In this document: positions 30,694 to 50,619 of the stretch, piece after piece | How the letters are laid out: each line of letters begins with the position of its first letter | Numbering within the stretch: position 1 is the first letter of the stretch | Origin: Haliotis asinina | Taxonomy: Eukaryota; Mollusca; Gastropoda; Lepetellida; Haliotidae | Direction of reading: 5' to 3' | Assembly (NCBI RefSeq): GCF_037392515.1 | Contig: NC_090288.1 | Coordinates: 56,405,673-56,469,672, forward strand | Length of the DNA stretch: 64,000 nucleotides | Notes under the pieces: model-generated | Seen by the model: the letters and a program-made list of their open reading frames with translations, nothing else | Databases searched by the model: none | Told to the model about the DNA's origin: nothing | Position numbers and translations under genes: made by a program

Positions 30694-30719
30694 TTTTAAT
30701 ATTTTATATCATATACATA

Positions 30720-30947
30720 ATGTCTGAGGGGAAAACGTTCGTCAACGACGCATACCACGCCACAGTGGTAGCCAGTCTAGCCGTAGGGTACGCTCGGTTG
30801 ACTAAAATGGTGCTTAAACAACCAACTATCAAGCTAGATTTCAACCTGCAGGATATGGGTATGCTCATAATGAACCTTGGTATGGCGATGGCCACAAAAG
30901 ACATCCTAGTAAAACAAGGAATAATACCTGATAATATAATGAAATAA
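30720..30947 (+). CDS. small conserved Polinton protein C
   Basis: 75 residues: ASLAVGYARLTKMVLKQP, LDFNLQDMGMLIMNLGMAMA and TKDILVKQGIIPDNI. Two weak hydrophobic helices. The pattern is one I recall from Polinton-like loci in other animals. It is preceded by an AT-rich 26-bp spacer ('attttaatattttatatc') that may serve as promoter. Confidence 0.55.
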   Translation: MSEGKTFVNDAYHATVVASLAVGYARLTKMVLKQPTIKLDFNLQDMGMLIMNLGMAMATKDILVKQGIIPDNIMK

Positions 30948-30955
30948 ATATAGGG

Positions 30956-31381
30956 ATGGCCACGATAGCTATGATGCTCGGTGGGGCGTTAGTGAATGCC
31001 CTGGCATTTTCCGGGAGTAATTTCCTCTTCTCGAAACTACGAGATGATCACGCGGCTGAAATACAGGAAGAAAGGAAGCGACACGATCTCGCTACTGAGA
31101 AATTACAAAGAGCACAGGACGAGTACGTTAAAAAACGCCTCCAGAGGATCGATTTTATTAACGAGCAACTCAAGCGTGAAAACCATGCCGTTCAAACATT
31201 CAACGATGTCGATGAAGCAATGAAAGAATACTATCTACTAACTGGTAAACAATTGGAACCGCTCAATAAACCCACACTCGCTCAGTACTACACACCATCC
31301 AAGGGACAAATGAATCGTGAACTGGGCTTCATAGTGTTGGGTATAGCAGCTACTGCGTTGGTTGCGAAGCAATTAAATTAA
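30956..31381 (+). CDS. conserved Polinton protein D with coiled coil
   Basis: 141 residues: a small hydrophobic N-terminus (MMLGGALVNALAFSGSNFLF), a charged coiled coil with HDLATEKLQRAQDEYVKKRL, a conserved TFNDVDEAMKEYY segment, and a C-terminal hydrophobic helix (FIVLGIAATALVAK). Hydrophobic regions at both ends around a coiled coil suggest a membrane-associated virion protein. It starts 8 bp after protein C. Function unknown. Confidence 0.6.
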   Translation: MATIAMMLGGALVNALAFSGSNFLFSKLRDDHAAEIQEERKRHDLATEKLQRAQDEYVKKRLQRIDFINEQLKRENHAVQTFNDVDEAMKEYYLLTGKQLEPLNKPTLAQYYTPSKGQMNRELGFIVLGIAATALVAKQLN

Positions 31382-31400
31382 AATACCTATATAAGTAAAC

Positions 31401-31667
31401 ATGAGACCCGCTCCATACCGATGCGAATACATACTTATGGGGAAGACCGAGGCCTGTGGTAGGAAATGCAGGAATCAGGGGTTCTGTTGTTTCCATATGG
31501 GAAGCCCTAACTACACGTGTTCTGTGTGTGGTATCGGGGTTAAAGGACACTACTGTCTATGTAAAGCTCACGGAGCGAACGTAGTCAGACATCAACTCAT
31601 CTACGAGAATAAAAAAGGCTACATAAAAGAACGTAGGCGACTGCTCAAGATAGACTCCAGTGCGTGA
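31401..31667 (+). CDS. small cysteine-rich (zinc-ribbon-like) protein E
   Basis: 88 residues with many Cys/His: RCEYILMGKTEACGRKCRNQ, CCFH, CSVCGIGVKGHYCLCKAHG. The paired Cys and Cys-His spacings suggest zinc binding. The C-terminus is basic (KKGYIKERRRLLK). It lies between protein D and PolB. It could be a DNA- or RNA-binding regulator, but nothing specific is recognised. Confidence 0.5.
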   Translation: MRPAPYRCEYILMGKTEACGRKCRNQGFCCFHMGSPNYTCSVCGIGVKGHYCLCKAHGANVVRHQLIYENKKGYIKERRRLLKIDSSA

Positions 31668-31727
31668 AAGGGTTACCTCCCCTTACTGTGAACCAATTAG
31701 ACATTGGTTCTCTTAGGTGTAAACACG

Positions 31728-34700
31728 ATGTCTACTGTAAGCGAGCTCAAGCGGGTCGCAAAACAGAGAGGTGTGATCGGGTATTCTAGAATGCGGAAGT
31801 CAGCATTGTTGAGATTACTAGGTTTAGAAGCCCCTCCTTCAGTAAAACAATTAAAAACTCAAGCAAAACAGCTTGGATACACGGGTTATTCAAACCTGGG
31901 GAGAGCCGGGTTAACCGCATTGTTATCACATGCCCCCGTAGCAAAACCTCCCACTGTAAAACAACTGAAAGCCGAGGCACACGATTTGGGTTTAGGCGGG
32001 TATTCCTGTATGAGAAAACCACAGCTTGTAGAATTATTACGAGAGAATAGAGCTATTGACCTACAGTTCGTGCGCACTGAGCGCGCTGTAGGCAACTATT
32101 TGAGAGGTTGGCGCATGCACGTTGATAGAAACATAGACATTACAGATATCAAGCCTCTGATAGCTGATAAGGTCAACCAGGAACTAAATAACTTAGGAAG
32201 TATCAAGTTTCAGATCACAGTGAAAATGTCACTCGATAAGCAGGTTGGGGGCCCCACAGGGGCCACTGAGTATGTTCAGCCTTACTTCCAAGGTCAACAA
32301 GAGGTCGCCACACATACAGAGACCATTGACGCATCAATCGATACCAGTTTTCAGCAGATACGAGAATACCTAGAACGCTACACACACTTGGGGTCCGGGT
32401 GGGCTGTAGATAAAATCGATAATGTCTATCTAGACATAGCTAACTATGTGCCGTTCAGAGGCGGGTCATACCTAGCCTTGCCTCCCTACTATAGGAACAA
32501 ACATGCCATAGTAAACGTTAAGAATAGAGGAAACGATTGCCTGAGGTTAGCTATCAGGTCAGCCTTATTTCCAGCTGGCACTAATCCGAACAGGCCTTCT
32601 AATTATCCCCAAGACGATGGGCTCAACTGGGATGGTATAGATGAACCCACCCCCATATCCCAGATCACTAAAGTAGAAAAACAGAATAATCTGGCTATAA
32701 ATGTCTTTGGGCACGAAGGTAACACAACAATAGTACACAGGGTCAGCCCGGTGAAGGATCGCCAAGTTATCAATATATTCATGATCCAACGAGGTGAAAA
32801 GTATCACTACACGTGGATAAAACATCTCAGCCGGTTGTTGCACGACCAGTCGAAACACGATGGGGAAAAACATTTTTGTGTACGATGCCTACACGGTTTC
32901 AGTCGAGCTGATTTATTAGAATCCCACCGGGAGGATTGCCAAGGTGTGGGGCAGACGACCATACGAGTCGACATGCCTAAGGAAAGTGACAATATCCTAA
33001 AATTCAGTAACCACAAGAATCAAATGTCTGTGCCTTATATTATATACGCCGACTTCGAAGCCTTAGTTGTGGGTGGGGATTCCACCAGTGATACCGCCGT
33101 CGAGGCTCCCTTCACCCACAAAACACAAGAGCATAAAGCCTGTTCGTTTGGATACATTGTCGTCCGTTGTGACGGGGAAACGAAAGCTCCGGTAGTATAT
33201 AGGGGCCCTGACGCGGCTGAAAGGTTTCTAAAGTGTTTGCAGGAGGAAGAAAAAATTATTAGGAATACATTGTATAGAATCGCTCCCTTGCGTATGACCC
33301 GAGTCGACAGGCTAGCCCACGCTAGTAGCACTAACTGTCACGTGTGTGACTCACCACTTAACGGTGATTCGGTGAGAGATCACTGCCACATAACTGGTAA
33401 GTATAGAGGCGCCGCTCACAACGCGTGCAACCTCAAGCTTAAAATCAACCCTAAGACAATAAACATCCCCGTTGTATTTCACAACTTGAGAGGGTACGAC
33501 TCACACTTGATCATGCAGGCCATCGCGAAAATCGATGGTAATATAACGTGCATCCCCAACAACATGGAGAGATACATCTCCTTCAGCTTAAACGGACTTA
33601 GGTTCATTGACTCGTTTCAGTTCCTCCTGTCGTTACTCGACAGTCTGGTCAAGGCCAACAATACCTTCCCTATCACCGATCGATACACAGACGCCGAGAC
33701 TAGACCCCTGCTTATGAGGAAGGGTGTGTACCCCTATGAGTACATGGATAGTTGGGCCAAGTTCACCGAGACCAGACTACCCCCTATTGACTGCTTTTAT
33801 AGCAAGCTGAATGAGGCGTCCGTCTCACGAGATGATTACTCGCACGCGACCAACGTATGGAATAAACTGGGTTGTAAGAACCTGGGTGATTATCACGACC
33901 TGTACTTGAGGACAGATGTACTGCTGTTAGCCGACGTGTTTGAAACGTTTAGGCGGACATGTTTCAAGCAGTATAAACTCGACCCCGCATGGTATTACAC
34001 CAGCCCAGGTCTGTCGTGGGACGCCTTGCTTAAAAAGACCGGAGTTAATTTGGAATTGCTCACAGATTACGACATGCACCTATTCATTGAGAAAGGCTTG
34101 CGAGGTGGGATTTCCATGGCATCCAAACGATACGCGAAAGCAAATAATCAATACGTGAAAGGTTACGATCCTAACAAGCCAACCAATCACATTCTCTACC
34201 TTGACGCAAACAACCTGTACGGCTGGGCCATGAGCCAGTATCTACCTACAGGGGGATTCGAATGGGTACCCCACGTTGATGTTATGGGGGTTGCACCAGA
34301 TTCAAACAAAGGGTATATCCTCGAGGTTGACTTAGAGTATACCAAGGAATTACACACATCACACAACAGCTACCCCCTGGCCCCCGAACGTATGAGGGTT
34401 AACCCAGACTGGATGTCTGAGTACCAACATAACTTGTCAGGTGGGCGTGTGACAGACGTTGAAAAACTCGTGCCTAACTTAATGAATAAGACCAAGTACA
34501 TCGTTCACTATCGCAACCTACAGCTGTACCTGTCGTTGGGTATGAGGCTGGCCAAAATACACAGGGTGCTCATGTTCGACCAGAGCCCATGGATGGAGCC
34601 CTACATCAGAATGAACACAGACCTACGAAATAAAGCCACCAGTGATTTTGAGAAAAATCTCTACAAGCTCATGAACAACTCGGTGTTTGGTAAGACTATG

Positions 34701-35441
34701 GAGAACCTGAGGAAACGCATGACCGTGAAGCTGGTTCGGTCGAGTGAGGAAGACAAGCTCAGGAGATTGATAGCCAGTCCGGCATTCAACCGTAGTAAGA
34801 TATTCACAGACAACCTGGTTGCCCTACACATGAAGAAAAGCCACATAAAATTCAACCGGCCTGTTTACGTGAGGATGAGCATCCTCGATTTATCCAAACA
34901 CCTGATGTACGACTTTTACTACAACGAGCTCAAGAAACAGTACGGTGACAGGTGTGAAGTGCTGTACACTGACACGGATTCCCTGCTGATGGAGATTCGA
35001 ACCGAGGACGTGTACGAGGACATGAAAAAACACCTCGATTTATACGACACCAGTGACTACCCTAAGACCCATGCCATACACAGTACGGTAAATAAAAAGG
35101 TCCTAGGTAAGATGAAGGACGAGTGTGCTGGCACGCCCATAGCCGAGTACATAGGTTTGAGACCTAAGATGTACTCCATACTGAAAGCCGACAATAGTGA
35201 AATCCGGAAGGCTAAGGGGGTTAAGAAGTATGTGGTGAAACAACACATCAAACACGCCAGATTCAAGGAAGCCCTGTTCAAGACCTGTACCTTTAGACAT
35301 AAAATGAACACACTTAGAAGTGATGGGCATAAGATATACGGACTGACTATAAACAAGACGTCCCTGTCGCCTATGGACATGAAACGTTGGATAGCTATTG
35401 ATGGGATAAACACATACGCGTATGGACATGAAAAAATTTGA
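31728..35441 (+). CDS. POLB: protein-primed DNA polymerase B with N-terminal HeH/SAP-like repeats
   Basis: 1237 residues from the ATG at 31728 (the frame upstream opens only with TTG). Residues ~1-110 hold three ~35-residue helical repeats (TVSELKRVAKQRG-x-GYSRM, SVKQLKTQAKQLGYTGYSNL, TVKQLKAEAHDLGLGGYSCM), SAP/HeH-like DNA-binding units. A C2H2-like finger is at ~384 (FCVRC...SHREDC). Exonuclease motifs are D442/E444 (YADFEAL), D591 (HNLRGYDSHL) and D730 (RTDVLLLAD). An HNH/endonuclease-VII-like insertion has C537/C540 and DHCH at 551-554. Polymerase motifs A (D826, DANNLYGW), B (NNSVFGKTMENL) and C (D1082/D1084, YTDTDSLL) follow. It replicates the element from protein-primed ends. The last 20 bp overlap the integrase start. 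Confidence 0.92.
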   Translation: MSTVSELKRVAKQRGVIGYSRMRKSALLRLLGLEAPPSVKQLKTQAKQLGYTGYSNLGRAGLTALLSHAPVAKPPTVKQLKAEAHDLGLGGYSCMRKPQLVELLRENRAIDLQFVRTERAVGNYLRGWRMHVDRNIDITDIKPLIADKVNQELNNLGSIKFQITVKMSLDKQVGGPTGATEYVQPYFQGQQEVATHTETIDASIDTSFQQIREYLERYTHLGSGWAVDKIDNVYLDIANYVPFRGGSYLALPPYYRNKHAIVNVKNRGNDCLRLAIRSALFPAGTNPNRPSNYPQDDGLNWDGIDEPTPISQITKVEKQNNLAINVFGHEGNTTIVHRVSPVKDRQVINIFMIQRGEKYHYTWIKHLSRLLHDQSKHDGEKHFCVRCLHGFSRADLLESHREDCQGVGQTTIRVDMPKESDNILKFSNHKNQMSVPYIIYADFEALVVGGDSTSDTAVEAPFTHKTQEHKACSFGYIVVRCDGETKAPVVYRGPDAAERFLKCLQEEEKIIRNTLYRIAPLRMTRVDRLAHASSTNCHVCDSPLNGDSVRDHCHITGKYRGAAHNACNLKLKINPKTINIPVVFHNLRGYDSHLIMQAIAKIDGNITCIPNNMERYISFSLNGLRFIDSFQFLLSLLDSLVKANNTFPITDRYTDAETRPLLMRKGVYPYEYMDSWAKFTETRLPPIDCFYSKLNEASVSRDDYSHATNVWNKLGCKNLGDYHDLYLRTDVLLLADVFETFRRTCFKQYKLDPAWYYTSPGLSWDALLKKTGVNLELLTDYDMHLFIEKGLRGGISMASKRYAKANNQYVKGYDPNKPTNHILYLDANNLYGWAMSQYLPTGGFEWVPHVDVMGVAPDSNKGYILEVDLEYTKELHTSHNSYPLAPERMRVNPDWMSEYQHNLSGGRVTDVEKLVPNLMNKTKYIVHYRNLQLYLSLGMRLAKIHRVLMFDQSPWMEPYIRMNTDLRNKATSDFEKNLYKLMNNSVFGKTMENLRKRMTVKLVRSSEEDKLRRLIASPAFNRSKIFTDNLVALHMKKSHIKFNRPVYVRMSILDLSKHLMYDFYYNELKKQYGDRCEVLYTDTDSLLMEIRTEDVYEDMKKHLDLYDTSDYPKTHAIHSTVNKKVLGKMKDECAGTPIAEYIGLRPKMYSILKADNSEIRKAKGVKKYVVKQHIKHARFKEALFKTCTFRHKMNTLRSDGHKIYGLTINKTSLSPMDMKRWIAIDGINTYAYGHEKI

Positions 35442-36390
35442 GGCTATTTACTACAGCCCGCGTGGGTACTGGAAAGGAGCTAGCGCAGTAGATAAGCTAG
35501 CTAAAATAGCGCGAGTACCCCCGGAGGAAGCCAAAGCGTGGCTTGAAAAACAAGCCCTGTGGCAGATCTATTTGCCGGCACCACGCTACGTGCCTAGAAG
35601 GAGGTTCGGTATTAACATACCTAATAGCGTTCACCAGGCAGACCTACTGTTCCTACCCCACGACAAGAGGTACAAGTATGCCTTAACCGTAGTGGATGTA
35701 GCCAGTCGTTACAAGGAAGCCGAACCCTTGACCACGAAAGATTCGGCCCAGGTAGCCAGAGGATTCGAACGCATATACAAACGCAGTCCGCTGACGTGGC
35801 CAACAGAGCTGCAAGTTGACCCCGGACGGGAGTTCATGGGTGCCGTGTCACAACTGCTAGCCAAACACGATACAAAGGTCAGGCGTGGCACGGCCGGAGC
35901 CCATCGCAGCCAAGCCATAGTTGAGAGATTTAATAGGACTTTGGCTGAGCGCTTGTTCGGCCATCAGTATGCTAGGGAGATGGTCACCCCTGGAAAACGA
36001 TCGACTGAATGGGTCACGAGGTTACCCAAGGTGGTGACGGCAATCAACCATGAAGTCACCCGTCTCACCGGTAAGAAACCGGCAGACGCTATCAAACTAA
36101 AATCAATAGTTGCAGAGTCGGCCGCTCCATTGCGTGGGAAGGAGAAACAGATACCAAATCGGGCCCTAGTGAGGTATCTATACCAGCCGGGGGAACACGA
36201 GGGCGATAGCCGTAAGCGAGCCACCGATCCTATATGGTCAGTCAAAACTTACAACATAGATAAAGTGGATATAAAAGCCGACGAACCTAACTTGTACTAC
36301 TTGAGGGATGGGCCGGGTAGGGGTTTTGTAAGAGAAGAATTATTGATCGTACCGTACGGCACAGTGTTACCTCCAACCAATACACGGTAA
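35422..36390 (+). CDS. INT: Polinton integrase (inner copy), intact
   Basis: 322 residues, retroviral-type DD35E integrase: D74, D133, E168. The N-terminal HTH-like segment is present only in this copy and in the outer copy; the nine array copies downstream lack it. It overlaps PolB by 20 bp. The last ~65 codons lie within the right terminal inverted repeat. The stop is 143 bp from the element end. This copy has Asn where all array units have Asp in the IP(N/D)RALVRY segment, and Val in the EMVTPGK segment. Confidence 0.93.
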   Translation: MDMKKFEAIYYSPRGYWKGASAVDKLAKIARVPPEEAKAWLEKQALWQIYLPAPRYVPRRRFGINIPNSVHQADLLFLPHDKRYKYALTVVDVASRYKEAEPLTTKDSAQVARGFERIYKRSPLTWPTELQVDPGREFMGAVSQLLAKHDTKVRRGTAGAHRSQAIVERFNRTLAERLFGHQYAREMVTPGKRSTEWVTRLPKVVTAINHEVTRLTGKKPADAIKLKSIVAESAAPLRGKEKQIPNRALVRYLYQPGEHEGDSRKRATDPIWSVKTYNIDKVDIKADEPNLYYLRDGPGRGFVREELLIVPYGTVLPPTNTR

Positions 36391-36533
36391 ACTGTTTCAT
36401 AGACACCCAACCTTTTTGTAGTAGGGGTAATAGTAGCAAGAGCTAATGACCCAACCAAAGCCTTATTTAGTAAATAAGGCTTTGTAGAGACATTTCTTGA
36501 AAGTGTTTTAGAACTGTCATTCCCTATACTACT
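36189..36533. repeat. right terminal inverted repeat of the inner Polinton
   Basis: 345 bp, reverse complement of the left end apart from about 30 extra bases near 'tagacacccaacctttttg'. It contains the integrase 3' end, the perfect 27-bp palindrome (36457-36483) and the terminal CCCTATACTACT. Confidence 0.88.
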
Positions 36534-36538
36534 TGGGC
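36534..36538. repeat. target-site duplication TGGGC, first right-hand copy
   Basis: TGGGC follows the first right terminus. Because the flank was captured in the duplication unit, it is repeated after every array copy. Confidence 0.75.
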
Positions 36539-36550
36539 TGGAAAGCCAAA

Positions 36551-37406
36551 AGCGTGGCTTGAAAAACAAGCCCTGTGGCAGATCTATTTGCCGGCACCAC
36601 GCTACGTGCCTAGAAGGAGGTTCGGTATTAACATACCTAATAGCGTTCACCAGGCAGACCTACTGTTCCTACCCCACGACAAGAGGTACAAGTATGCCTT
36701 AACCGTAGTGGATGTAGCCAGTCGTTACAAGGAAGCCGAACCCTTGACCACGAAAGATTCGGCCCAGGTAGCCAGAGGATTCGAACGCATATACAAACGC
36801 AGTCCGCTGACGTGGCCAACAGAGCTGCAAGTTGACCCCGGACGGGAGTTCATGGGTGCCGTGTCACAACTGCTAGCCAAACACGATACAAAGGTCAGGC
36901 GTGGCACGGCCGGAGCCCATCGCAGCCAAGCCATAGTTGAGAGATTTAATAGGACTTTGGCTGAGCGCTTGTTCGGCCATCAGTATGCTAGGGAGATGGC
37001 CACCCCTGGAAAACGATCGACTGAATGGGTCACGAGGTTACCCAAGGTGGTGACGGCAATCAACCATGAAGTCACCCGTCTCACCGGTAAGAAACCGGCA
37101 GACGCTATCAAACTAAAATCAATAGTTGCAGAGTCGGCCGCTCCATTGCGTGGGAAGGAGAAACAGATACCAGATCGGGCCCTAGTGAGGTATCTATACC
37201 AGCCGGGGGAACACGAGGGCGATAGCCGTAAGCGAGCCACCGATCCTATATGGTCAGTCAAAACTTACAACATAGATAAAGTGGATATAAAAGCCGACGA
37301 ACCTAACTTATACTACTTGAGGGATGGGCCGGGTAGGGGTTTTGTAAGAGAAGAATTATTGATCGTACCGTACGGCACAGTGTTACCTCCAACCAATACA
37401 CGGTAA
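36551..37406 (+). pseudogene. array unit 1: 5'-truncated integrase
   Basis: Lacks the start codon and the N-terminal HTH part but keeps D, D and E. Ala at the EM(A/V)TPGK site. Carries a private silent change (aacttatac for aacttgtac) near 37311. Confidence 0.9.
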
Positions 37407-37566
37407 ACTGTTTCATAGACACCCAACCTTTTTGTAGTAGGGGTAATAGTAGCAAGAGCTAATGACCCAACCAAAGCCTTATTTAGTAAATAAGGCTTTG
37501 TAGAGACATTTCTTGAAAGTGTTTTAGAACTGTCATTCCCTATACTACTTGGGCTGGAAAGCCAAA

Positions 37567-38422
37567 AGCGTGGCTTGAAAAACAAGCCCTGTGGCAGATC
37601 TATTTGCCGGCACCACGCTACGTGCCTAGAAGGAGGTTCGGTATTAACATACCTAATAGCGTTCACCAGGCAGACCTACTGTTCCTACCCCACGACAAGA
37701 GGTACAAGTATGCCTTAACCGTAGTGGATGTAGCCAGTCGTTACAAGGAAGCCGAACCCTTGACCACGAAAGATTCGGCCCAGGTAGCCAGAGGATTCGA
37801 ACGCATATACAAACGCAGTCCGCTGACGTGGCCAACAGAGCTGCAAGTTGACCCCGGACGGGAGTTCATGGGTGCCGTGTCACAACTGCTAGCCAAACAC
37901 GATACAAAGGTCAGGCGTGGCACGGCCGGAGCCCATCGCAGCCAAGCCATAGTTGAGAGATTTAATAGGACTTTGGCTGAGCGCTTGTTCGGCCATCAGT
38001 ATGCTAGGGAGATGGCCACCCCTGGAAAACGATCGACTGAATGGGTCACGAGGTTACCCAAGGTGGTGACGGCAATCAACCATGAAGTCACCCGTCTCAC
38101 CGGTAAGAAACCGGCAGACGCTATCAAACTAAAATCAATAGTTGCAGAGTCGGCCGCTCCATTGCGTGGGAAGGAGAAACAGATACCAGATCGGGCCCTA
38201 GTGAGGTATCTATACCAGCCGGGGGAACACGAGGGCGATAGCCGTAAGCGAGCCACCGATCCTATATGGTCAGTCAAAACTTACAACATAGATAAAGTGG
38301 ATATAAAAGCCGACGAACCTAACTTGTACTACTTGAGGGATGGGCCGGGTAGGGGTTTTGTAAGAGAAGAATTATTGATCGTACCGTACGGCACAGTGTT
38401 ACCTCCAACCAATACACGGTAA
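37567..38422 (+). pseudogene. array unit 2: 5'-truncated integrase
   Basis: Same truncation as unit 1; Ala variant. DDE core retained, no ATG upstream of the core. Confidence 0.9.
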
Positions 38423-38582
38423 ACTGTTTCATAGACACCCAACCTTTTTGTAGTAGGGGTAATAGTAGCAAGAGCTAATGACCCAACCAAAGCCTTATTT
38501 AGTAAATAAGGCTTTGTAGAGACATTTCTTGAAAGTGTTTTAGAACTGTCATTCCCTATACTACTTGGGCTGGAAAGCCAAA

Positions 38583-39438
38583 AGCGTGGCTTGAAAAACA
38601 AGCCCTGTGGCAGATCTATTTGCCGGCACCACGCTACGTGCCTAGAAGGAGGTTCGGTATTAACATACCTAATAGCGTTCACCAGGCAGACCTACTGTTC
38701 CTACCCCACGACAAGAGGTACAAGTATGCCTTAACCGTAGTGGATGTAGCCAGTCGTTACAAGGAAGCCGAACCCTTGACCACGAAAGATTCGGCCCAGG
38801 TAGCCAGAGGATTCGAACGCATATACAAACGCAGTCCGCTGACGTGGCCAACAGAGCTGCAAGTTGACCCCGGACGGGAGTTCATGGGTGCCGTGTCACA
38901 ACTGCTAGCCAAACACGATACAAAGGTCAGGCGTGGCACGGCCGGAGCCCATCGCAGCCAAGCCATAGTTGAGAGATTTAATAGGACTTTGGCTGAGCGC
39001 TTGTTCGGCCATCAGTATGCTAGGGAGATGGTCACCCCTGGAAAACGATCGACTGAATGGGTCACGAGGTTACCCAAGGTGGTGACGGCAATCAACCATG
39101 AAGTCACCCGTCTCACCGGTAAGAAACCGGCAGACGCTATCAAACTAAAATCAATAGTTGCAGAGTCGGCCGCTCCATTGCGTGGGAAGGAGAAACAGAT
39201 ACCAGATCGGGCCCTAGTGAGGTATCTATACCAGCCGGGGGAACACGAGGGCGATAGCCGTAAGCGAGCCACCGATCCTATATGGTCAGTCAAAACTTAC
39301 AACATAGATAAAGTGGATATAAAAGCCGACGAACCTAACTTGTACTACTTGAGGGATGGGCCGGGTAGGGGTTTTGTAAGAGAAGAATTATTGATCGTAC
39401 CGTACGGCACAGTGTTACCTCCAACCAATACACGGTAA
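38583..39438 (+). pseudogene. array unit 3: 5'-truncated integrase
   Basis: Val variant (as in the parental full-length copy). Confidence 0.9.
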
Positions 39439-39598
39439 ACTGTTTCATAGACACCCAACCTTTTTGTAGTAGGGGTAATAGTAGCAAGAGCTAATGACCC
39501 AACCAAAGCCTTATTTAGTAAATAAGGCTTTGTAGAGACATTTCTTGAAAGTGTTTTAGAACTGTCATTCCCTATACTACTTGGGCTGGAAAGCCAAA

Positions 39599-40454
39599 AG
39601 CGTGGCTTGAAAAACAAGCCCTGTGGCAGATCTATTTGCCGGCACCACGCTACGTGCCTAGAAGGAGGTTCGGTATTAACATACCTAATAGCGTTCACCA
39701 GGCAGACCTACTGTTCCTACCCCACGACAAGAGGTACAAGTATGCCTTAACCGTAGTGGATGTAGCCAGTCGTTACAAGGAAGCCGAACCCTTGACCACG
39801 AAAGATTCGGCCCAGGTAGCCAGAGGATTCGAACGCATATACAAACGCAGTCCGCTGACGTGGCCAACAGAGCTGCAAGTTGACCCCGGACGGGAGTTCA
39901 TGGGTGCCGTGTCACAACTGCTAGCCAAACACGATACAAAGGTCAGGCGTGGCACGGCCGGAGCCCATCGCAGCCAAGCCATAGTTGAGAGATTTAATAG
40001 GACTTTGGCTGAGCGCTTGTTCGGCCATCAGTATGCTAGGGAGATGGTCACCCCTGGAAAACGATCGACTGAATGGGTCACGAGGTTACCCAAGGTGGTG
40101 ACGGCAATCAACCATGAAGTCACCCGTCTCACCGGTAAGAAACCGGCAGACGCTATCAAACTAAAATCAATAGTTGCAGAGTCGGCCGCTCCATTGCGTG
40201 GGAAGGAGAAACAGATACCAGATCGGGCCCTAGTGAGGTATCTATACCAGCCGGGGGAACACGAGGGCGATAGCCGTAAGCGAGCCACCGATCCTATATG
40301 GTCAGTCAAAACTTACAACATAGATAAAGTGGATATAAAAGCCGACGAACCTAACTTGTACTACTTGAGGGATGGGCCGGGTAGGGGTTTTGTAAGAGAA
40401 GAATTATTGATCGTACCGTACGGCACAGTGTTACCTCCAACCAATACACGGTAA
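39599..40454 (+). pseudogene. array unit 4: 5'-truncated integrase
   Basis: Val variant. Confidence 0.9.
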
Positions 40455-40614
40455 ACTGTTTCATAGACACCCAACCTTTTTGTAGTAGGGGTAATAGTAG
40501 CAAGAGCTAATGACCCAACCAAAGCCTTATTTAGTAAATAAGGCTTTGTAGAGACATTTCTTGAAAGTGTTTTAGAACTGTCATTCCCTATACTACTTGG
40601 GCTGGAAAGCCAAA

Positions 40615-41470
40615 AGCGTGGCTTGAAAAACAAGCCCTGTGGCAGATCTATTTGCCGGCACCACGCTACGTGCCTAGAAGGAGGTTCGGTATTAACATAC
40701 CTAATAGCGTTCACCAGGCAGACCTACTGTTCCTACCCCACGACAAGAGGTACAAGTATGCCTTAACCGTAGTGGATGTAGCCAGTCGTTACAAGGAAGC
40801 CGAACCCTTGACCACGAAAGATTCGGCCCAGGTAGCCAGAGGATTCGAACGCATATACAAACGCAGTCCGCTGACGTGGCCAACAGAGCTGCAAGTTGAC
40901 CCCGGACGGGAGTTCATGGGTGCCGTGTCACAACTGCTAGCCAAACACGATACAAAGGTCAGGCGTGGCACGGCCGGAGCCCATCGCAGCCAAGCCATAG
41001 TTGAGAGATTTAATAGGACTTTGGCTGAGCGCTTGTTCGGCCATCAGTATGCTAGGGAGATGGCCACCCCTGGAAAACGATCGACTGAATGGGTCACGAG
41101 GTTACCCAAGGTGGTGACGGCAATCAACCATGAAGTCACCCGTCTCACCGGTAAGAAACCGGCAGACGCTATCAAACTAAAATCAATAGTTGCAGAGTCG
41201 GCCGCTCCATTGCGTGGGAAGGAGAAACAGATACCAGATCGGGCCCTAGTGAGGTATCTATACCAGCCGGGGGAACACGAGGGCGATAGCCGTAAGCGAG
41301 CCACCGATCCTATATGGTCAGTCAAAACTTACAACATAGATAAAGTGGATATAAAAGCCGACGAACCTAACTTGTACTACTTGAGGGATGGGCCGGGTAG
41401 GGGTTTTGTAAGAGAAGAATTATTGATCGTACCGTACGGCACAGTGTTACCTCCAACCAATACACGGTAA
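40615..41470 (+). pseudogene. array unit 5: 5'-truncated integrase
   Basis: Ala variant. Confidence 0.9.
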
Positions 41471-41630
41471 ACTGTTTCATAGACACCCAACCTTTTTGTA
41501 GTAGGGGTAATAGTAGCAAGAGCTAATGACCCAACCAAAGCCTTATTTAGTAAATAAGGCTTTGTAGAGACATTTCTTGAAAGTGTTTTAGAACTGTCAT
41601 TCCCTATACTACTTGGGCTGGAAAGCCAAA

Positions 41631-42486
41631 AGCGTGGCTTGAAAAACAAGCCCTGTGGCAGATCTATTTGCCGGCACCACGCTACGTGCCTAGAAGGAGG
41701 TTCGGTATTAACATACCTAATAGCGTTCACCAGGCAGACCTACTGTTCCTACCCCACGACAAGAGGTACAAGTATGCCTTAACCGTAGTGGATGTAGCCA
41801 GTCGTTACAAGGAAGCCGAACCCTTGACCACGAAAGATTCGGCCCAGGTAGCCAGAGGATTCGAACGCATATACAAACGCAGTCCGCTGACGTGGCCAAC
41901 AGAGCTGCAAGTTGACCCCGGACGGGAGTTCATGGGTGCCGTGTCACAACTGCTAGCCAAACACGATACAAAGGTCAGGCGTGGCACGGCCGGAGCCCAT
42001 CGCAGCCAAGCCATAGTTGAGAGATTTAATAGGACTTTGGCTGAGCGCTTGTTCGGCCATCAGTATGCTAGGGAGATGGCCACCCCTGGAAAACGATCGA
42101 CTGAATGGGTCACGAGGTTACCCAAGGTGGTGACGGCAATCAACCATGAAGTCACCCGTCTCACCGGTAAGAAACCGGCAGACGCTATCAAACTAAAATC
42201 AATAGTTGCAGAGTCGGCCGCTCCATTGCGTGGGAAGGAGAAACAGATACCAGATCGGGCCCTAGTGAGGTATCTATACCAGCCGGGGGAACACGAGGGC
42301 GATAGCCGTAAGCGAGCCACCGATCCTATATGGTCAGTCAAAACTTACAACATAGATAAAGTGGATATAAAAGCCGACGAACCTAACTTGTACTACTTGA
42401 GGGATGGGCCGGGTAGGGGTTTTGTAAGAGAAGAATTATTGATCGTACCGTACGGCACAGTGTTACCTCCAACCAATACACGGTAA
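41631..42486 (+). pseudogene. array unit 6: 5'-truncated integrase
   Basis: Ala variant. Confidence 0.9.
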
Positions 42487-42646
42487 ACTGTTTCATAGAC
42501 ACCCAACCTTTTTGTAGTAGGGGTAATAGTAGCAAGAGCTAATGACCCAACCAAAGCCTTATTTAGTAAATAAGGCTTTGTAGAGACATTTCTTGAAAGT
42601 GTTTTAGAACTGTCATTCCCTATACTACTTGGGCTGGAAAGCCAAA

Positions 42647-43502
42647 AGCGTGGCTTGAAAAACAAGCCCTGTGGCAGATCTATTTGCCGGCACCACGCTA
42701 CGTGCCTAGAAGGAGGTTCGGTATTAACATACCTAATAGCGTTCACCAGGCAGACCTACTGTTCCTACCCCACGACAAGAGGTACAAGTATGCCTTAACC
42801 GTAGTGGATGTAGCCAGTCGTTACAAGGAAGCCGAACCCTTGACCACGAAAGATTCGGCCCAGGTAGCCAGAGGATTCGAACGCATATACAAACGCAGTC
42901 CGCTGACGTGGCCAACAGAGCTGCAAGTTGACCCCGGACGGGAGTTCATGGGTGCCGTGTCACAACTGCTAGCCAAACACGATACAAAGGTCAGGCGTGG
43001 CACGGCCGGAGCCCATCGCAGCCAAGCCATAGTTGAGAGATTTAATAGGACTTTGGCTGAGCGCTTGTTCGGCCATCAGTATGCTAGGGAGATGGCCACC
43101 CCTGGAAAACGATCGACTGAATGGGTCACGAGGTTACCCAAGGTGGTGACGGCAATCAACCATGAAGTCACCCGTCTCACCGGTAAGAAACCGGCAGACG
43201 CTATCAAACTAAAATCAATAGTTGCAGAGTCGGCCGCTCCATTGCGTGGGAAGGAGAAACAGATACCAGATCGGGCCCTAGTGAGGTATCTATACCAGCC
43301 GGGGGAACACGAGGGCGATAGCCGTAAGCGAGCCACCGATCCTATATGGTCAGTCAAAACTTACAACATAGATAAAGTGGATATAAAAGCCGACGAACCT
43401 AACTTGTACTACTTGAGGGATGGGCCGGGTAGGGGTTTTGTAAGAGAAGAATTATTGATCGTACCGTACGGCACAGTGTTACCTCCAACCAATACACGGT
43501 AA
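42647..43502 (+). pseudogene. array unit 7: 5'-truncated integrase
   Basis: Ala variant. Confidence 0.9.
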
Positions 43503-43662
43503 ACTGTTTCATAGACACCCAACCTTTTTGTAGTAGGGGTAATAGTAGCAAGAGCTAATGACCCAACCAAAGCCTTATTTAGTAAATAAGGCTTTGTAGA
43601 GACATTTCTTGAAAGTGTTTTAGAACTGTCATTCCCTATACTACTTGGGCTGGAAAGCCAAA

Positions 43663-44518
43663 AGCGTGGCTTGAAAAACAAGCCCTGTGGCAGATCTATT
43701 TGCCGGCACCACGCTACGTGCCTAGAAGGAGGTTCGGTATTAACATACCTAATAGCGTTCACCAGGCAGACCTACTGTTCCTACCCCACGACAAGAGGTA
43801 CAAGTATGCCTTAACCGTAGTGGATGTAGCCAGTCGTTACAAGGAAGCCGAACCCTTGACCACGAAAGATTCGGCCCAGGTAGCCAGAGGATTCGAACGC
43901 ATATACAAACGCAGTCCGCTGACGTGGCCAACAGAGCTGCAAGTTGACCCCGGACGGGAGTTCATGGGTGCCGTGTCACAACTGCTAGCCAAACACGATA
44001 CAAAGGTCAGGCGTGGCACGGCCGGAGCCCATCGCAGCCAAGCCATAGTTGAGAGATTTAATAGGACTTTGGCTGAGCGCTTGTTCGGCCATCAGTATGC
44101 TAGGGAGATGGTCACCCCTGGAAAACGATCGACTGAATGGGTCACGAGGTTACCCAAGGTGGTGACGGCAATCAACCATGAAGTCACCCGTCTCACCGGT
44201 AAGAAACCGGCAGACGCTATCAAACTAAAATCAATAGTTGCAGAGTCGGCCGCTCCATTGCGTGGGAAGGAGAAACAGATACCAGATCGGGCCCTAGTGA
44301 GGTATCTATACCAGCCGGGGGAACACGAGGGCGATAGCCGTAAGCGAGCCACCGATCCTATATGGTCAGTCAAAACTTACAACATAGATAAAGTGGATAT
44401 AAAAGCCGACGAACCTAACTTGTACTACTTGAGGGATGGGCCGGGTAGGGGTTTTGTAAGAGAAGAATTATTGATCGTACCGTACGGCACAGTGTTACCT
44501 CCAACCAATACACGGTAA
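43663..44518 (+). pseudogene. array unit 8: 5'-truncated integrase
   Basis: Val variant. Confidence 0.9.
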
Positions 44519-44678
44519 ACTGTTTCATAGACACCCAACCTTTTTGTAGTAGGGGTAATAGTAGCAAGAGCTAATGACCCAACCAAAGCCTTATTTAGTA
44601 AATAAGGCTTTGTAGAGACATTTCTTGAAAGTGTTTTAGAACTGTCATTCCCTATACTACTTGGGCTGGAAAGCCAAA

Positions 44679-45534
44679 AGCGTGGCTTGAAAAACAAGCC
44701 CTGTGGCAGATCTATTTGCCGGCACCACGCTACGTGCCTAGAAGGAGGTTCGGTATTAACATACCTAATAGCGTTCACCAGGCAGACCTACTGTTCCTAC
44801 CCCACGACAAGAGGTACAAGTATGCCTTAACCGTAGTGGATGTAGCCAGTCGTTACAAGGAAGCCGAACCCTTGACCACGAAAGATTCGGCCCAGGTAGC
44901 CAGAGGATTCGAACGCATATACAAACGCAGTCCGCTGACGTGGCCAACAGAGCTGCAAGTTGACCCCGGACGGGAGTTCATGGGTGCCGTGTCACAACTG
45001 CTAGCCAAACACGATACAAAGGTCAGGCGTGGCACGGCCGGAGCCCATCGCAGCCAAGCCATAGTTGAGAGATTTAATAGGACTTTGGCTGAGCGCTTGT
45101 TCGGCCATCAGTATGCTAGGGAGATGGTCACCCCTGGAAAACGATCGACTGAATGGGTCACGAGGTTACCCAAGGTGGTGACGGCAATCAACCATGAAGT
45201 CACCCGTCTCACCGGTAAGAAACCGGCAGACGCTATCAAACTAAAATCAATAGTTGCAGAGTCGGCCGCTCCATTGCGTGGGAAGGAGAAACAGATACCA
45301 GATCGGGCCCTAGTGAGGTATCTATACCAGCCGGGGGAACACGAGGGCGATAGCCGTAAGCGAGCCACCGATCCTATATGGTCAGTCAAAACTTACAACA
45401 TAGATAAAGTGGATATAAAAGCCGACGAACCTAACTTGTACTACTTGAGGGATGGGCCGGGTAGGGGTTTTGTAAGAGAAGAATTATTGATCGTACCGTA
45501 CGGCACAGTGTTACCTCCAACCAATACACGGTAA
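44679..45534 (+). pseudogene. array unit 9: 5'-truncated integrase
   Basis: Val variant. Its terminal repeat (ending 45677) is followed by TGGGCTGG and then directly by outer PolB sequence rather than another unit. Confidence 0.9.
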
Positions 45535-45677
45535 ACTGTTTCATAGACACCCAACCTTTTTGTAGTAGGGGTAATAGTAGCAAGAGCTAATGACCCAACC
45601 AAAGCCTTATTTAGTAAATAAGGCTTTGTAGAGACATTTCTTGAAAGTGTTTTAGAACTGTCATTCCCTATACTACT

Positions 45678-45682
45678 TGGGC
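45678..45682. repeat. target-site duplication TGGGC, right border with outer PolB
   Basis: TGGGC between the last CCCTATACTACT and 'tggtgtaataccatg', which is the antisense continuation of PolB broken off at 22277. Confidence 0.8.
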
Positions 45683-47198
45683 TGGTGTAATACCATGCGG
45701 GGTCAAGTTTATACTGCTTGAAACACGTCCGCCTAAACGTCTCAAACACGTCGGCTAACAGCAGTACATCTGTCCTCAAGTACAGGTCGTGATAATCACC
45801 CAGGTTCTTACAACCCAGTTTATTCCATACGTTGGTCGCGTGCGAGTAATCATCTCGTGAGACGGACGCCTCATTCAGCTTGCTATAAAAGCAGTCAATA
45901 GGGGGTAGTCTGGTCTCGGTGAACTTGACCCAACTATCCATGTACTCATAGGGGTACACACCCTTCCTCATAAGCAGGCGTCTAGTCTCGGCGTCTGTGT
46001 ATCGATCGGTGATAGGGAAGGCATTGTTGGCCTTGACCAGACTGTCGAGTGACGACAGGAGGAACTGAAACGAGTCAATGAACCTAAGTCCTTTTAAGCT
46101 GAAGGAGATGTATCTCTCCATGTTGTTGGGGATGCACGTTATATTACCATCGATTTTCGCGATGGCCTGCATGATCAAGTGTGAGTCGTACCCTCTCAAG
46201 TTGTGAAAGACAACGGGGATGTTTATTGTCTTAGGGTTGATTTTAAGCTTGAGGTTGCACGCGTTGTGAGCGGCGCCTCTATACTTACCAGTTATGTGGC
46301 AGTGATCTCTCACCGAATCACCGTTAAGTGGTGAGTCACACACGTGACAGTTAGTGCTACTAGCGTGAGCTAGCCTGTCGACTTGGGTCATACGCATGGG
46401 AGCGATTCTATAAAATGCATTCCTAATAATTTTTTCTTCCTCCTGCAAACACTTTAGAAACCTTTCAGCCGCGTCAGGGCCCCTATACACTACCGGAGCT
46501 TTCGTTTCCCCGTCACAACGGACGACAATGTATCCAAACCCACAGGCTTTATGCTCTTGTGTGGGGGAAACCAAGGCTTCGAAGTCGGCGTATATGATAT
46601 AAGGCACAGACATTTGGTTCTTGTGGTTACCGAATTTTAGGATATTATCACCTTCCTTAGGCATGTCGACTCGTATGGCCGTCTGCCCCACACCTTGACA
46701 ATCCTCCCGGTGGGATTCTAATAAATCAGCTCGTGTGAAGCCATGTAGGCATCGTTCACAGAAGTGGGTCTTTCCTTTGTGTGCCGATTGGTCATACAAC
46801 AGCCTGCTAAAGTGTTTTATCCATGTGTAGTGATACTTGTCACCTCGCTGGATCATGAATATATTGATAACTTGGCGATCCTTCACCGGGCTGACCCTGT
46901 GTACTATTGTTGTGTTACCTTCGTGCCCAAAGATATTTATAGCCAGATTATTCTGTTTTTCTACTTTAGTGATCTGGGAGATGGGGGTGGGTTCATCTAT
47001 ACCATCTCAGTTGAGCCCATCGTCTTGGGGATAGCTAGAAAGCCTATCTGAATTAGTGCCAGCTGGAAATAAGGCTGACCTGATAGCTAACCTCAGGCAA
47101 TCGTTTCCTCTATTCTTAACGTTTACTATGGCATGTTTGTTCCTATAGTAGGGGGGCAAGGCTAGGTATGACCCGCCTCTGAATGGCACGTAGTTAGC
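45683..47198 (-). pseudogene. POLB: middle part of outer Polinton PolB
   Basis: Minus strand, matching inner PolB from about residue 240 (VPFRGGSYLALPPYYRNKHA) to the YYTSP site where the inner element is inserted. It has the zinc-finger-like region, exonuclease motifs YADFEALV and HNLRGYDSHL, and the endonuclease-VII-like DHCH motif. It is broken by a TGG to TGA nonsense codon at 47007-47009. Compared with the inner copy it lacks a ~17-residue insertion after FEALV. At 47196-47198 it joins the MCP fragment through three shared bases. An ORF that continues from here through the terminal repeat is accidental. Confidence 0.9.
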
Positions 47199-47704
47199 AA
47201 CTCGAAGTCGAGCGGCACGCAGAATCGATTCCCGTATGCTCGAGCGATGGCCTTTTCACCGTCCGATAGCTTGTCTAGCTGGTCTGGCGTGAAGGCATAC
47301 CCTATGCGCGACCGGGTTGATTTGCTGATGCCCTGGTACACATCATTGACTCGTTCTCCCTCGCTTTTCCAGAGATCCCCGTAGCAGTGAAACACGTCGC
47401 TGTCGTCGATGCTCAGCACCTCGTTACCGCTGATCTTGACGGTCGTTTTCTTGATGATAGCTCGACCCACGTTCCGCACTAGCTCGCGTTTGTCGTTGTC
47501 GGAGGTCAACGTGATATTGAACGCCAGTCGAACAGTGCCTGGTACAATGAGGTCATTCTCACCAAGGTTTGGAAATCTAACCAGCAGAGTTTGATTCTGG
47601 TCTATCTTGCTGGGATTGTTGGTGATGGTCACCGACTGGCGCACGGCTCTGGCTCCTAATGGCTCTCTCAATCTTCTGAAAGGATCTAATTTTCTGCCGT
47701 ACAT
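47196..47704 (-). pseudogene. MCP: 5' fragment of outer major capsid protein
   Basis: About 170 codons nearly identical to the start of the inner MCP, ending at LDFELL. A deletion then fuses it to PolB. It cannot make a capsid protein. It is divergent from the coiled-coil gene at 47743. Confidence 0.92.
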
Positions 47705-47742
47705 TGTTATGTATAAATGAAATATATTTTTAATACTAAATA
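47705..47742. promoter_or_regulatory. AT-rich divergent spacer in outer copy
   Basis: 38 bp, almost all A/T, between the MCP and coiled-coil start codons, equivalent to 27852-27883. Confidence 0.45.
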
Positions 47743-48838
47743 ATGGCTGAAGACATACCTATGATGGAGATGTGGGATGATACTATGGATGATACAGGGG
47801 CCGAGCAGGAGACCTCATTCTCGCTAGGTGACGCACTCATGAAGGAGGACGCCGTCGACGATTATTACAACACAGTTGAAAATAAATCCAAACTCAAGCC
47901 GTTGGGAAGGGACTATTCCAGGTTTACCCTCGATAGCAATGGCACGCTGCGTTTGAAGGCTCACCCGGAGATCGATCTCGTGAATAAACGCACGAGAGAA
48001 CCGCTTGCTTTATCAACACTGGGCAGTCGACATGGGAGTGACTTGATCCGCGATGAACTAGGTTTCATAGATTACGGTGGCACGCGACCTAAGCTTCCTC
48101 CGAAGGTCCGTGAAGATCTGCAAGCTTATGATATTAAAAAGGTGTTGGCCGACTACGAGAACAAGCCCTTCCCGGGTTTCGAACTTACCTTTCGGGAACT
48201 GCGGGGGTTGGACCTGTTGATGCAAACCATTCGTGGTCAGCTCTGGAAAAGCACGGCCAAAGTGAGTGAGATAGACGGCCACATCGACTATGAAAAGGGC
48301 AAACTCGGTGAAACTGAGGACGAGTCTATGAAAGCCACCATCGAGGAACGAATACGTAATTTGGAAGAGGAAAGGCAGGTCTGGTTGGAGACAGCGTCCG
48401 GCTACAAAGAAAAGCTTCGATCCCAGACCAACTCTGTGCGGGAAACCATCAATCAAGTCCTCTACCGAGACACCACGTTAGCAGACAGGATTCGGATATT
48501 GTTCCGGGAGCAAGGGATCACCATCACCAGCATTCTGACTGCATTGGGTTTCATCATATCAACCTTGGTGGTGTCACTGACAGGGGGTACTGTGGGAGTG
48601 CCCCCCACACCCCCCCGGCGGTGGTGTTAAAGACTGGATGAAAAAACTCGGGGAAGGCCTAGCTAAACTGGCTGGTAAAGCCGCCGAAGCCCTTCCCGGC
48701 ATCCTGGGTAGCATCGTCTCGTGGTTGTTGGGCGCTCTGGCTAAAACTGTCACGTGGCTCAGTCAAAACCTGTGGGCAGCCATCGTCGCCGTGGCGGGTC
48801 TAGTGTACGTAGCGGCTAAGAAATTTTTAACCAAATAA
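47743..48838 (+). pseudogene. coiled-coil membrane protein, outer copy, frameshifted
   Basis: It follows the inner protein through its coiled coil and first hydrophobic segment (ILTALGFIISTLVVSL). The frame then shifts in a run of seven C at the Gly/Pro linker (about 48605-48617) and stops at 48630. The lost C-terminal part (LAKLAGKAAEALPGILGSIV, last helix) is open in another frame at 48638-48838. It diverges much more from the inner copy than MCP or integrase do. Confidence 0.88.
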
Positions 48839-50024
48839 GTCCCAAAGCTACCCCACCAACCACCAGGGCCGTTTTACTATCAATATGCTGCTGATTGGAG
48901 GCCTGAATATGGGGGGCCACCTCCTGTGGTGTTGGTTGAACTTTAGACTCCGGGGGTGGCGCCACTATACCCGTTTCACGTGGTGGGATGTGTGGGATAT
49001 ATGGGGTGTTAACATCGGGGTTGATACCCAACTTTTGATCCGCCGTGGCTATGACTATTTTGATGTTATAACCCACCACTTTTTTTACTCTCAGTTGCAT
49101 ATCACTCGGAGCCATGTACAGCCCCACGGCGAACACGTAGTTGACTTTCGATCTGGCGTATTCTAACACGTTTTGGTAGCGTTCGATGGCCCTCGGGAGA
49201 TCAACTGGAGAATTGATAGCATCCTCAACGTTGACAACGAACTGTTTCTGAGCGTCGTAAGCAGTTCCCTTACCGAGGATGTTGGAACGCGTCATCGACT
49301 GCGCACCCAACAGCGCCCACACGTACGTTCGAATCGAGTCGTTCATCCTGACTACCCCGGCATTAGTAAACCCTTTCGACGTGTCCAGCATGAACATTTT
49401 CCACCCGTCTGCGGTTGACTGCTCCACTTTCTGGACTGTGAAAGCAACACCACCTTTAAAGTTCATACGATCATCCCTCCATTCATTACTCGACAAAGCA
49501 AAGTCCTGGCGTAGTATATCTCGTTTCAGTAAATCATCACTGACTTCTTTCACTGATCGCCCCCCATCATAAGGAATACCCAACCCGTGGTTCGGGCCCG
49601 GCAAACGCCAATCCGTCTTCGGGTTTATTTCGAATTCATTGCAAATACGTTCGTAGGCCCGTCTATCGTACGGGTTGTTTGTTGCGTCCCACGCTTTGTC
49701 CTGTGGGAGGGGGGCGCTGATCTCTTTAAGGATACGTCTGACCTGGTAGTACACGTGGAACTTGAACACAGACTGACTCAGCGGTCCACGCCGAGTGTCG
49801 GTCAATGTCACACCACACCCCGTTGTAGCGCACCACATGGCAAAGTTGAATTGATTCTGCCAGAACTGCATAGGGTTGTTGAACCAAGCGTGGACTGCCT
49901 TGACGTTAGTCACCGAAAGCTTATACTTATCGAACACATCTAAAAGCTGGGCATTGAAATACAACCCAGGAGCAACCACGATCTTCATGGGGGAGAAATC
50001 TACGTCCAGTTTAGGGTAAAACAT
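48816..50024 (-). CDS. NPMQFWQNQ-family protein, outer copy, open
   Basis: 402 residues. It has NPMQFWQNQFNFAMWCATTG, APLPQDKAWDATNNPYDRRA, MNDSIRTYVWALLGAQ and the C-terminal hydrophobic ALVVGGVALGLIWL. It is open throughout, like the integrase, despite the decay of its neighbours. It diverges clearly from the inner copy in the first 60 residues and around residues 150-200. The 23-bp 3' overlap with the convergent coiled-coil gene is conserved. Confidence 0.75.
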   Translation of the reverse strand: MFYPKLDVDFSPMKIVVAPGLYFNAQLLDVFDKYKLSVTNVKAVHAWFNNPMQFWQNQFNFAMWCATTGCGVTLTDTRRGPLSQSVFKFHVYYQVRRILKEISAPLPQDKAWDATNNPYDRRAYERICNEFEINPKTDWRLPGPNHGLGIPYDGGRSVKEVSDDLLKRDILRQDFALSSNEWRDDRMNFKGGVAFTVQKVEQSTADGWKMFMLDTSKGFTNAGVVRMNDSIRTYVWALLGAQSMTRSNILGKGTAYDAQKQFVVNVEDAINSPVDLPRAIERYQNVLEYARSKVNYVFAVGLYMAPSDMQLRVKKVVGYNIKIVIATADQKLGINPDVNTPYIPHIPPRETGIVAPPPESKVQPTPQEVAPHIQASNQQHIDSKTALVVGGVALGLIWLKIS

Positions 50025-50060
50025 TTGAAACTCTTATATAATGAGTATATATACTCTAAC
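50025..50060. promoter_or_regulatory. divergent spacer, outer copy, with 14-bp palindrome
   Basis: 36 bp between the NPMQFWQNQ start (50024, minus) and the penton start (50061, plus). It contains GAGTATATATACTC (50043-50056), a perfect palindrome, where the inner copy has its 35-bp palindrome. Confidence 0.5.
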
Positions 50061-50619
50061 ATGTACATAACACTTCCAGGAATAACGAGCGGTGAGGCCG
50101 TTCAGCTGACGCACGCGATCGATAACACGTCAGGCCAACTCGAAGTCGCACTCTGCGATATCACCTACCTACCGCAATGGACTAACATCAACGCCAGCAA
50201 CAATAAGCTGTTCGTCAGTGGAACTCGCAGCCAGATAACTGACGGCTACTACAGCGTGTGCTCTCTAAACGACGAGGTCTTGAAACCCCTGGGAGCCGAA
50301 CTCAAGATGAACGACTCAAACGGTACAGTGGTGTTAATCAACAACGGAAGAAACCCCTTGAGGCTCGGCCGACCATTAGCGAGGATACTCGGTATGTCTC
50401 CTGACGAGATAAAACCAACAACAACCGTCACAGGCACGAAGTTACCCGACCTAGTACCGTACCGAGAGCTGTACATTCATCTCGGTCAGGTGAGCGACAA
50501 CATTCAAGGAGGTCACCCTTCCACTATACTGAGAGCAGTGCCGGTGAAAACTGAGAAATACAACGACGGTAGAACCGAGTCGTTTTCACCACGGCAGTAT
50601 AAGAGATTAACCCAGGGCA
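50061..50619 (+). pseudogene. mCP: penton-type minor capsid protein, outer copy, 3'-truncated
   Basis: From MYITLPGITSGEAV it is nearly identical to the inner copy up to RLTQG, then it breaks off at 50619. The last ~30 residues, including the diagnostic IPELTI...LTLHV strands, are missing. The open frame runs into unrelated sequence until 50669. This break marks the end of the outer Polinton. Confidence 0.9.

Follow-up and report, generated by a model that had tools for sequence, protein, structure and literature searches.

Tandem arrays that form from the ends of transposons have been treated in two reviews, with unequal exchange proposed for them; neither review mentions Polinton or Maverick (PMC9659126, PMC12628747). 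In Crassostrea gigas, the satellite CgiSat52 has a 1656-bp monomer with similarity to DNA/Polinton and lies on one chromosome, where one assembly shows 17 monomers and another 6, and oyster satellite similarities of this kind have been termed fragmentary (PMC8268682). The closest mechanistic precedent for the locus described here is provided by the CUP1 arrays of Saccharomyces cerevisiae, in which the junctions of types 2-5 show no more than 3 bp of homology and the type 1 junction carries an extra A and extra T's (PMC4232551).

Within the 64,000-nucleotide stretch of Haliotis asinina DNA analysed here (the window), positions 35526-45685 comprise, as assembled, exactly 10 × 1016 bp in ten head-to-tail units. 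Identity at a period of 1016 is 0.9987 across the array, against 0.275 for the best of 50 shuffles over all periods between 20 and 2999. An earlier note had claimed a ten-copy 1016-bp array of integrase core plus Polinton terminus, and its period and unit count are both confirmed. In each unit, 5'-truncated integrase sequence is followed by the right terminal repeat and then by 8 bp of flank. A Polinton-type element (the inner element) sits in the polB gene of a related (outer) element and has unit 0 as its native end; the array is composed of this one native right end and nine extra copies.

35526-36541 (+): unit 0, made up of part of the native integrase, the right terminal repeat and 8-bp flank; bases 1-13 are native
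36456-36484 (no strand): palindrome in the right terminal repeat, identified by DNA folding and present in each unit; also at 22327-22355
36534-36541 (no strand): flank present in every unit: TGGGC (the target-site duplication, TSD), then T, then an ambiguous GG
36542-45685 (+): units 1-9, the nine extra copies, with the junction TGGGCTGG/AAAGCCAAAAGCG and the integrase truncated at the 5' end at about residue 39-40

Head-to-tail units of a transposon segment in more than two copies make this a transposon-derived tandem array. A satellite DNA family would occupy several loci or a sizeable share of the genome; searched as an exact pattern, the junction was found at one locus. The array is local and not a dispersed satellite, unlike transposon-derived satellites, with which it shares the tandem arrangement of terminal repeats and adjoining sequence (PMC9659126, PMC12628747). 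Scans of the window against Rfam and for tRNAs gave no matches. The elements that surround the array are laid out as follows.

19763-22277 (-): left part of the outer element, also of Polinton type, with terminal repeat, integrase and the C-terminal part of polB
22273-22277 (no strand): left TSD of the inner element, TGGGC
22278-22591 (+): left terminal inverted repeat of the inner element, beginning AGTAGT
27815-29140 (+): inner major capsid protein ORF, assigned from homologues
29141-29770 (+): inner A32-like packaging ATPase ORF (Pfam Pox_A32, E 1.3e-8)
31701-35441 (+): inner polB ORF, open over 1246 aa, assigned from homologues
35410-36390 (+): native full-length integrase ORF (P0002), 326 aa from stop to stop, overlapping unit 0 (Pfam rve, E 1.6e-10)
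45678-45682 (no strand): right TSD of the inner element, TGGGC
45678-50619 (-): remainder of the outer element, from the N-terminal part of polB onward

The inner element combines the Polinton/Maverick gene set of family-B DNA polymerase, rve integrase, A32-like ATPase and major capsid protein; the rve and Pox_A32 matches are above the Pfam cut-off, and the polymerase and capsid assignments rest on homologues rather than on their own Pfam scores. The capsid ORF is 59-66% identical to the best 120 of 2552 proteins, one of them named Major capsid protein in UniRef, and matches Pfam Capsid_N only below the cut-off (E 0.011). Residues 600-1246 of the polB ORF are 59-71% identical to the 120 matches listed, most of which carry a precomputed DNA_pol_B_2 annotation; the ORF itself gave no DNA_pol_B_2 match in the Pfam search. 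A maturation protease or minor capsid protein was sought in the ORF at 29802-30488, which had no Pfam or PDB match. The match in inverted orientation between the left terminal inverted repeat and 36189-36533 is split into a 116-bp piece (96.6% identity) and a 189-bp piece (97.4%), and the inner element has (AGT)2//(ACT)2 ends. The AGTAGT...ACTACT ends, terminal inverted repeats, PolB, integrase, ATPase and capsid protein are all shared with Maverick/Polinton elements (PMC8097293). The left part of the outer element is 97.1% identical, inverted, to 34003-36533 and has an rve match in the ORF at 19890-20870. Within the window the outer element has no counterpart of inner positions 28396-32438, and no right terminal repeat was found for it.

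The array junction has nine exact matches in the 1.14-Gb assembly, all at the array locus (control, 0). All 39 other high-scoring copies of the family, at 97-99% identity, have a single right end and the native breakpoint sequence; these sister copies are those scored among 2797 first-look candidates, a listing that does not include the units of the window. Two alleles, 511A and 634C, are present in all ten units, in none of the 39 sisters and not in the outer copy, which rules out both the outer copy and other family members as the source of the units. Since the junction is unique to this locus and all ten units carry these private bases, the array grew from the insertion at this locus after it had landed. 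The earlier proposal that the duplication postdates the inner insertion thus stands, the carried flank agreeing with it. The array is local in origin and recent relative to the divergence of the sisters. Outside the assembly, a search of viral_contigs with a single-protein query found no related locus and one with an alignment query returned a single locus at 29% (L001); a search of genome_contigs returned one related locus at 63%, on the contaminant contig L002. Neither of these two loci sheds light on arrays.

The sister copies also bear on the classification of the source element. A 6-bp TSD is reported for vertebrate Mavericks and is given for Polinton (PMC8097293), whereas the TSD is 5 bp in six of eight tested sister copies of the present family, as it is at the inner element; of the other two, L005 was mismatched and the left end of L010 was not found. 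A 6-bp TSD that had lost one base at the array locus is ruled out by the 5-bp duplications in the sisters. Judged from its predicted gene content, the source element is filed as Polinton-type, as a variant in TSD length.

The presence of ten intact right ends next to a family that was recently active might suggest a selected function, with the extra ends serving as integrase decoys or as a source of small RNAs against the family. However, the exact junction search places the array at one locus only, and the integrase frames of units 1-9 have no ATG upstream of the second catalytic Asp, so that such a role appears extremely improbable.

TGGGCTGG follows every one of the ten units. The earlier note had described eight bases of outer flank in each unit; these are indeed carried throughout, but five of them are the TSD and the closing GG also occurs at the integrase breakpoint, leaving the T as the only unambiguous flank base beyond the TSD. 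Its placement of the junction in short microhomology is not upheld: the ambiguous homology is 2 bp, which is no more than chance would give (at least 2 bp of shared bases occurs at 16% of random junctions), and the join is not clean, having two extra A's relative to the native sequence. With at most 2 bp (GG) of homology together with these A's, the junction falls within the limit of 3 bp seen at CUP1. Further features shared with CUP1 are kilobase-scale units, one repeated junction, an extra A and a homopolymer change at one CUP1 junction type, and expansion by unequal crossing-over; in contrast, CUP1 is a selected host gene whose arrays arise repeatedly, whereas the present array involves a transposon end and is seen once in the assembly (PMC4232551).

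The exact 5-bp TSD at the start of the carried flank, and a strong palindrome in the terminal repeat that could stall copying (13-bp stem, 3-nt loop; DNA fold z -8.2 and -5.1), would be compatible with an element-driven process in which the right end was acted on again and again, by the integrase or by protein-primed replication, and truncated ends were deposited each time at one target. Every unit nevertheless has the same internal breakpoint and the same two extra A's, which implies that the event happened once; each unit also includes at least one base past the TSD, and no similar structure occurs among the 39 sisters. This process is therefore highly improbable.

Once the 13 native bases that open unit 0 are set aside, variation among the units is confined to three offsets (458, 631 and 768), none of which is in a CpG context, ruling out CpG decay as their source. 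Pairwise differences among units over 995 bp average 0.96, with a maximum of 3. Such near identity could reflect over-expansion by the assembler of one or a few true units, but the three variants are unevenly spread and not in exact cycles, and the absence of the junction bases from all 39 sister copies examined, together with the restriction of the junction to this locus, makes at least one true duplication likely. An artefact of this kind is considered quite unlikely.

Along the array, offset 458 reads T/CC/TT/CCC/TT, and at offset 768 an A is kept in unit 1 alone, between units with G. So patchy an order is not what one copying event would leave unless exchange or mutation followed. Both sites are among the 33 of 995 that are commonly polymorphic in the family, which points to conversion, and possible donors permit conversion tracts of up to 339 and 168 bp. 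Every allele of units 1-9 other than those common to all units is also seen in sisters, although the sharing at 458 and 768 could instead reflect recurrent mutation. The identity of all nine junctions would also fit an extrachromosomal 1016-bp circle that gave rise to a rolling-circle multimer and recombined into the native end, and rolling-circle replication with reintegration has been cited for Bari1 arrays (PMC9659126). That route is unlikely, since it demands an additional circle and reintegration exactly in register at the native end, and the patchiness at 458 and 768 would call for later exchange or mutation regardless.

The array probably originated in an ordinary error of DNA repair that made a single non-homologous tandem duplication, after which unequal exchange and gene conversion enlarged the array and kept its units alike. 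The sequence of events begins with the insertion of a Polinton-type element into polB of a related one. Breakage or faulty replication at the right end of the insertion may then have linked a position immediately beyond the element (after TGGGCT or TGGGCTGG) to the interior of the integrase about 1 kb upstream; the join, which had at most slight homology and gained two A's, would have given one 1016-bp tandem duplication. The resulting perfect 1-kb direct repeats could have grown to ten units by unequal exchange. The patchiness of the few differences may stem from exchange together with gene conversion, processes in which dispersed copies of the family probably took part as well. On this view the array arose passively as a by-product and represents a young, local seed of a satellite; nothing about it suggests a function.

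One observation counts against a wholly random break, which does not predict it: the array breakpoint lies within about 4 codons of the breakpoint at which an unrelated integrase record (P0003) is internally duplicated, although this is one case, found post hoc. A 5-mer offset count detected internal duplication in one of 122 integrase sequences (P0003), the set being the best 120 of 3810 matches and two window proteins; BLAST self-comparison of integrase homologues, an insensitive method that missed P0003, detected none. It is conceivable, but distinctly doubtful, that the right ends of Polintons are a recurrent fragile site, at which the palindrome stalls copying and promotes duplication to integrase codon ~36-40, seeding terminus arrays. 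If so, P0003 would be a second case and arrays of transposon ends could titrate integrase.

The array is a young local example of a broadly known kind. The earlier statement that no Polinton with a tandemly amplified integrase/terminus has been described holds for an exact match, as a literature search, which covered the sources in part, found no description of exactly such an array; it is partly contradicted by the partly similar CgiSat52 and by the reviewed arrays of transposon termini (PMC8268682, PMC9659126, PMC12628747). CgiSat52 is likewise a tandem repeat that is confined in location and resembles Polinton in part (PMC8268682), but the present array still shows its source insertion, breakpoint and flank. 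Most transposon-derived satellites are met only after the source insertion has decayed. At this locus the source insertion, its TSD and the breakpoint can still be recognised, as can the extra bases and the early pattern of exchange; the steps from a single insertion to a ten-unit array can therefore be read in order. Copy counts of Polintons that are based on the integrase may be inflated by such arrays.

The interval 35526–45685 repeats with an exact period of 1016 bp through ten units, with an identity of 0.9987 at that period, confirming the ten-unit tandem array proposed in the earlier note (the window corresponds to C9:56405673–56469672 in an assembly of 1.14 Gb and 159 contigs). Unit 0, which forms the inner Polinton-type element's native right end, contains a portion of the integrase frame, the right terminal repeat, the ACTACT end at 36533 and then TGGGCTGG, which matches the right flank over 8 bases. 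The extra copies (units 1–9) start with AAAGCCAAAAGCG, whereas unit 0 starts with GGAAGCCAAAGCG. The native integrase frame overlapping unit 0 is open (326 aa) and matches Pfam rve.

The inner element, bounded on each side by inverted repeats, begins with AGTAGT at 22278 and carries an A32-like ATPase ORF together with major capsid protein and polB ORFs assigned by homologues. It lies in inverted orientation within polB of a related outer element, with 97% identity between the two over 2.5 kb and 91% between their polB proteins (459 aligned positions); the Pfam polymerase model scores on the outer polB fragment and gave no score on the inner polB ORF. Within the window, the outer element lacks a counterpart of inner 28396–32438, and no right terminal repeat was detected for it. 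At 19411–19762, a 111-bp tandem repeat array adjoins its left end.

Features of the window
7855–8823: 32.3 tandem copies (100% identity) of a 30-bp unit, enclosed by a minus-strand 369-aa open frame
10773–12959: one open frame of 728 aa similar to a Toll-like receptor, having leucine-rich repeats and a TIR domain
22327–22355 and 36456–36484: perfect palindrome (13-bp stem), found in each of the two inner terminal repeats and in every array unit
56269–57478: Tc1/mariner-like (IS630-type) transposase fragments

In the inner element's own polB the target site reads CCTGGGCTGG, and TGGGC at the end of the left flank (22273–22277) and the start of the right flank (45678–45682) forms a 5-bp target-site duplication. 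Among eight other family copies (sisters) whose left ends were sought, six have perfect 5-bp duplications (L003, L004, L006, L007, L008 and L009, with left ends L042, L043, L045, L049, L046 and L047, respectively); the flanks of L005 are mismatched and the left end of L010 was not found. This family thus makes 5-bp duplications, in contrast to the 6 bp given for Mavericks and Polintons in the available text of PMC8097293 and PMC10045372.

A unit search of the assembly, which scored 39 of its 2797 first-look candidates and did not include the window's own units in its listing, listed 47 matches: 39 near full length (97–99%) and eight of 29 bp that fall on the palindrome. All 39 scored sisters have a single unit-like match at the right end (∼1.5 kb read downstream) and the native start GGAAGCCAAAGCG at the breakpoint, and in 38 the alignment extends as far as the terminal ACTACT, that of L031 stopping at offset 980 of the unit. 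The junction pattern CCCTATACTACT-N(0-30)-AAAGCGTGGCTTG has nine matches assembly-wide, all inside the array, and its reversed control has none; this search was exact, and other breakpoints would escape it. The joint between element and outer flank occurs once in the assembly. Identical right flanks are shared by L009 and L016, 218 kb apart on one contig, and by L018 and L022, on contigs C18 and C4; these pairs represent segmental duplication or alternative haplotypes.

The bases at offsets 511 and 634 are absent from the outer copy and from all 39 sisters and are common to all ten units. The units therefore derive from the inner insertion itself and not from another copy, and the duplication followed that insertion, as previously claimed. 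Along the array from unit 0 to unit 9, the base at offset 458 runs T,C,C,T,T,C,C,C,T,T (sisters: C 22, T 17), A occurs at 768 in unit 1 only (sisters: A 7, G 32) and A occurs at 631 in unit 0 only (sisters: G 39). CpG decay was rejected as their cause, as none of the three sites lies in a CpG context. The variants at 458 and 768 more likely stem from gene conversion, with a dispersed copy, the outer copy or the left terminal repeat as donor, because common polymorphisms among sisters (minor count at least 3) occupy 33 of 995 sites and the chance of two random new mutations both falling on such sites is ∼0.001, a post hoc value that ignores the allele. The longest possible conversion tracts are 339 bp (donor L026) and 168 bp (donors L004 and L010). 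With the outer copy as donor they shrink to 78 and 50 bp, and with the left terminal repeat to 50 bp for 768; recurrent mutation is a possible source of both variants. Units 1–9 show no further variants, so the array is recent compared with the divergence of the inner insertion from its sisters. Unit 0 has three private alleles, where copies average 2.45.

The GG within the junction can alternatively be assigned to the integrase side, and the native sequence has nothing corresponding to two of the A's. Since 16% of random junctions share at least two bases, there is no clear sign that homology guided the join, and the GG(A)A-type microhomology suggested earlier is not upheld. The best-supported history is a single end-joining or template-switch duplication, which would have been followed by unequal exchange and conversion. 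The terminal-repeat palindrome, with a DNA fold z of −8.2, could have caused a stall or break. In the available portion of PMC4232551, yeast CUP1 array junctions show at most 3 bp of homology, one type having an extra A and extra T's in a run, a style close to that of the Haliotis junction. An internal tandem duplication of 119 residues in P0003, a 456-aa integrase record, starts within about four codons of the array breakpoint; as one among 122 sequences checked (120 listed of 3810 matches and two window proteins), this possible second case is a lead only.

Each of units 1–9 retains an uninterrupted stop-to-stop frame of 301 aa that contains the three catalytic motifs, which we take to be DDE. 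As the first ATG lies downstream of the second Asp motif, these units would be unlikely to yield an active integrase. There is no evidence of a function for the array.

Tandem arrays arising from transposon ends have been reviewed as a class, and the accessible text of these reviews (PMC9659126, PMC12628747) does not mention Polintons. The earlier statement that no tandemly amplified Polinton integrase/terminus had been described holds for the exact case, of which no identifiable description appears in the portions of the literature searched, but is contradicted in part by CgiSat52, an oyster repeat that is localized and partly similar to Polintons (PMC8268682, in part). The array is of a known kind, and its history is unusually legible.
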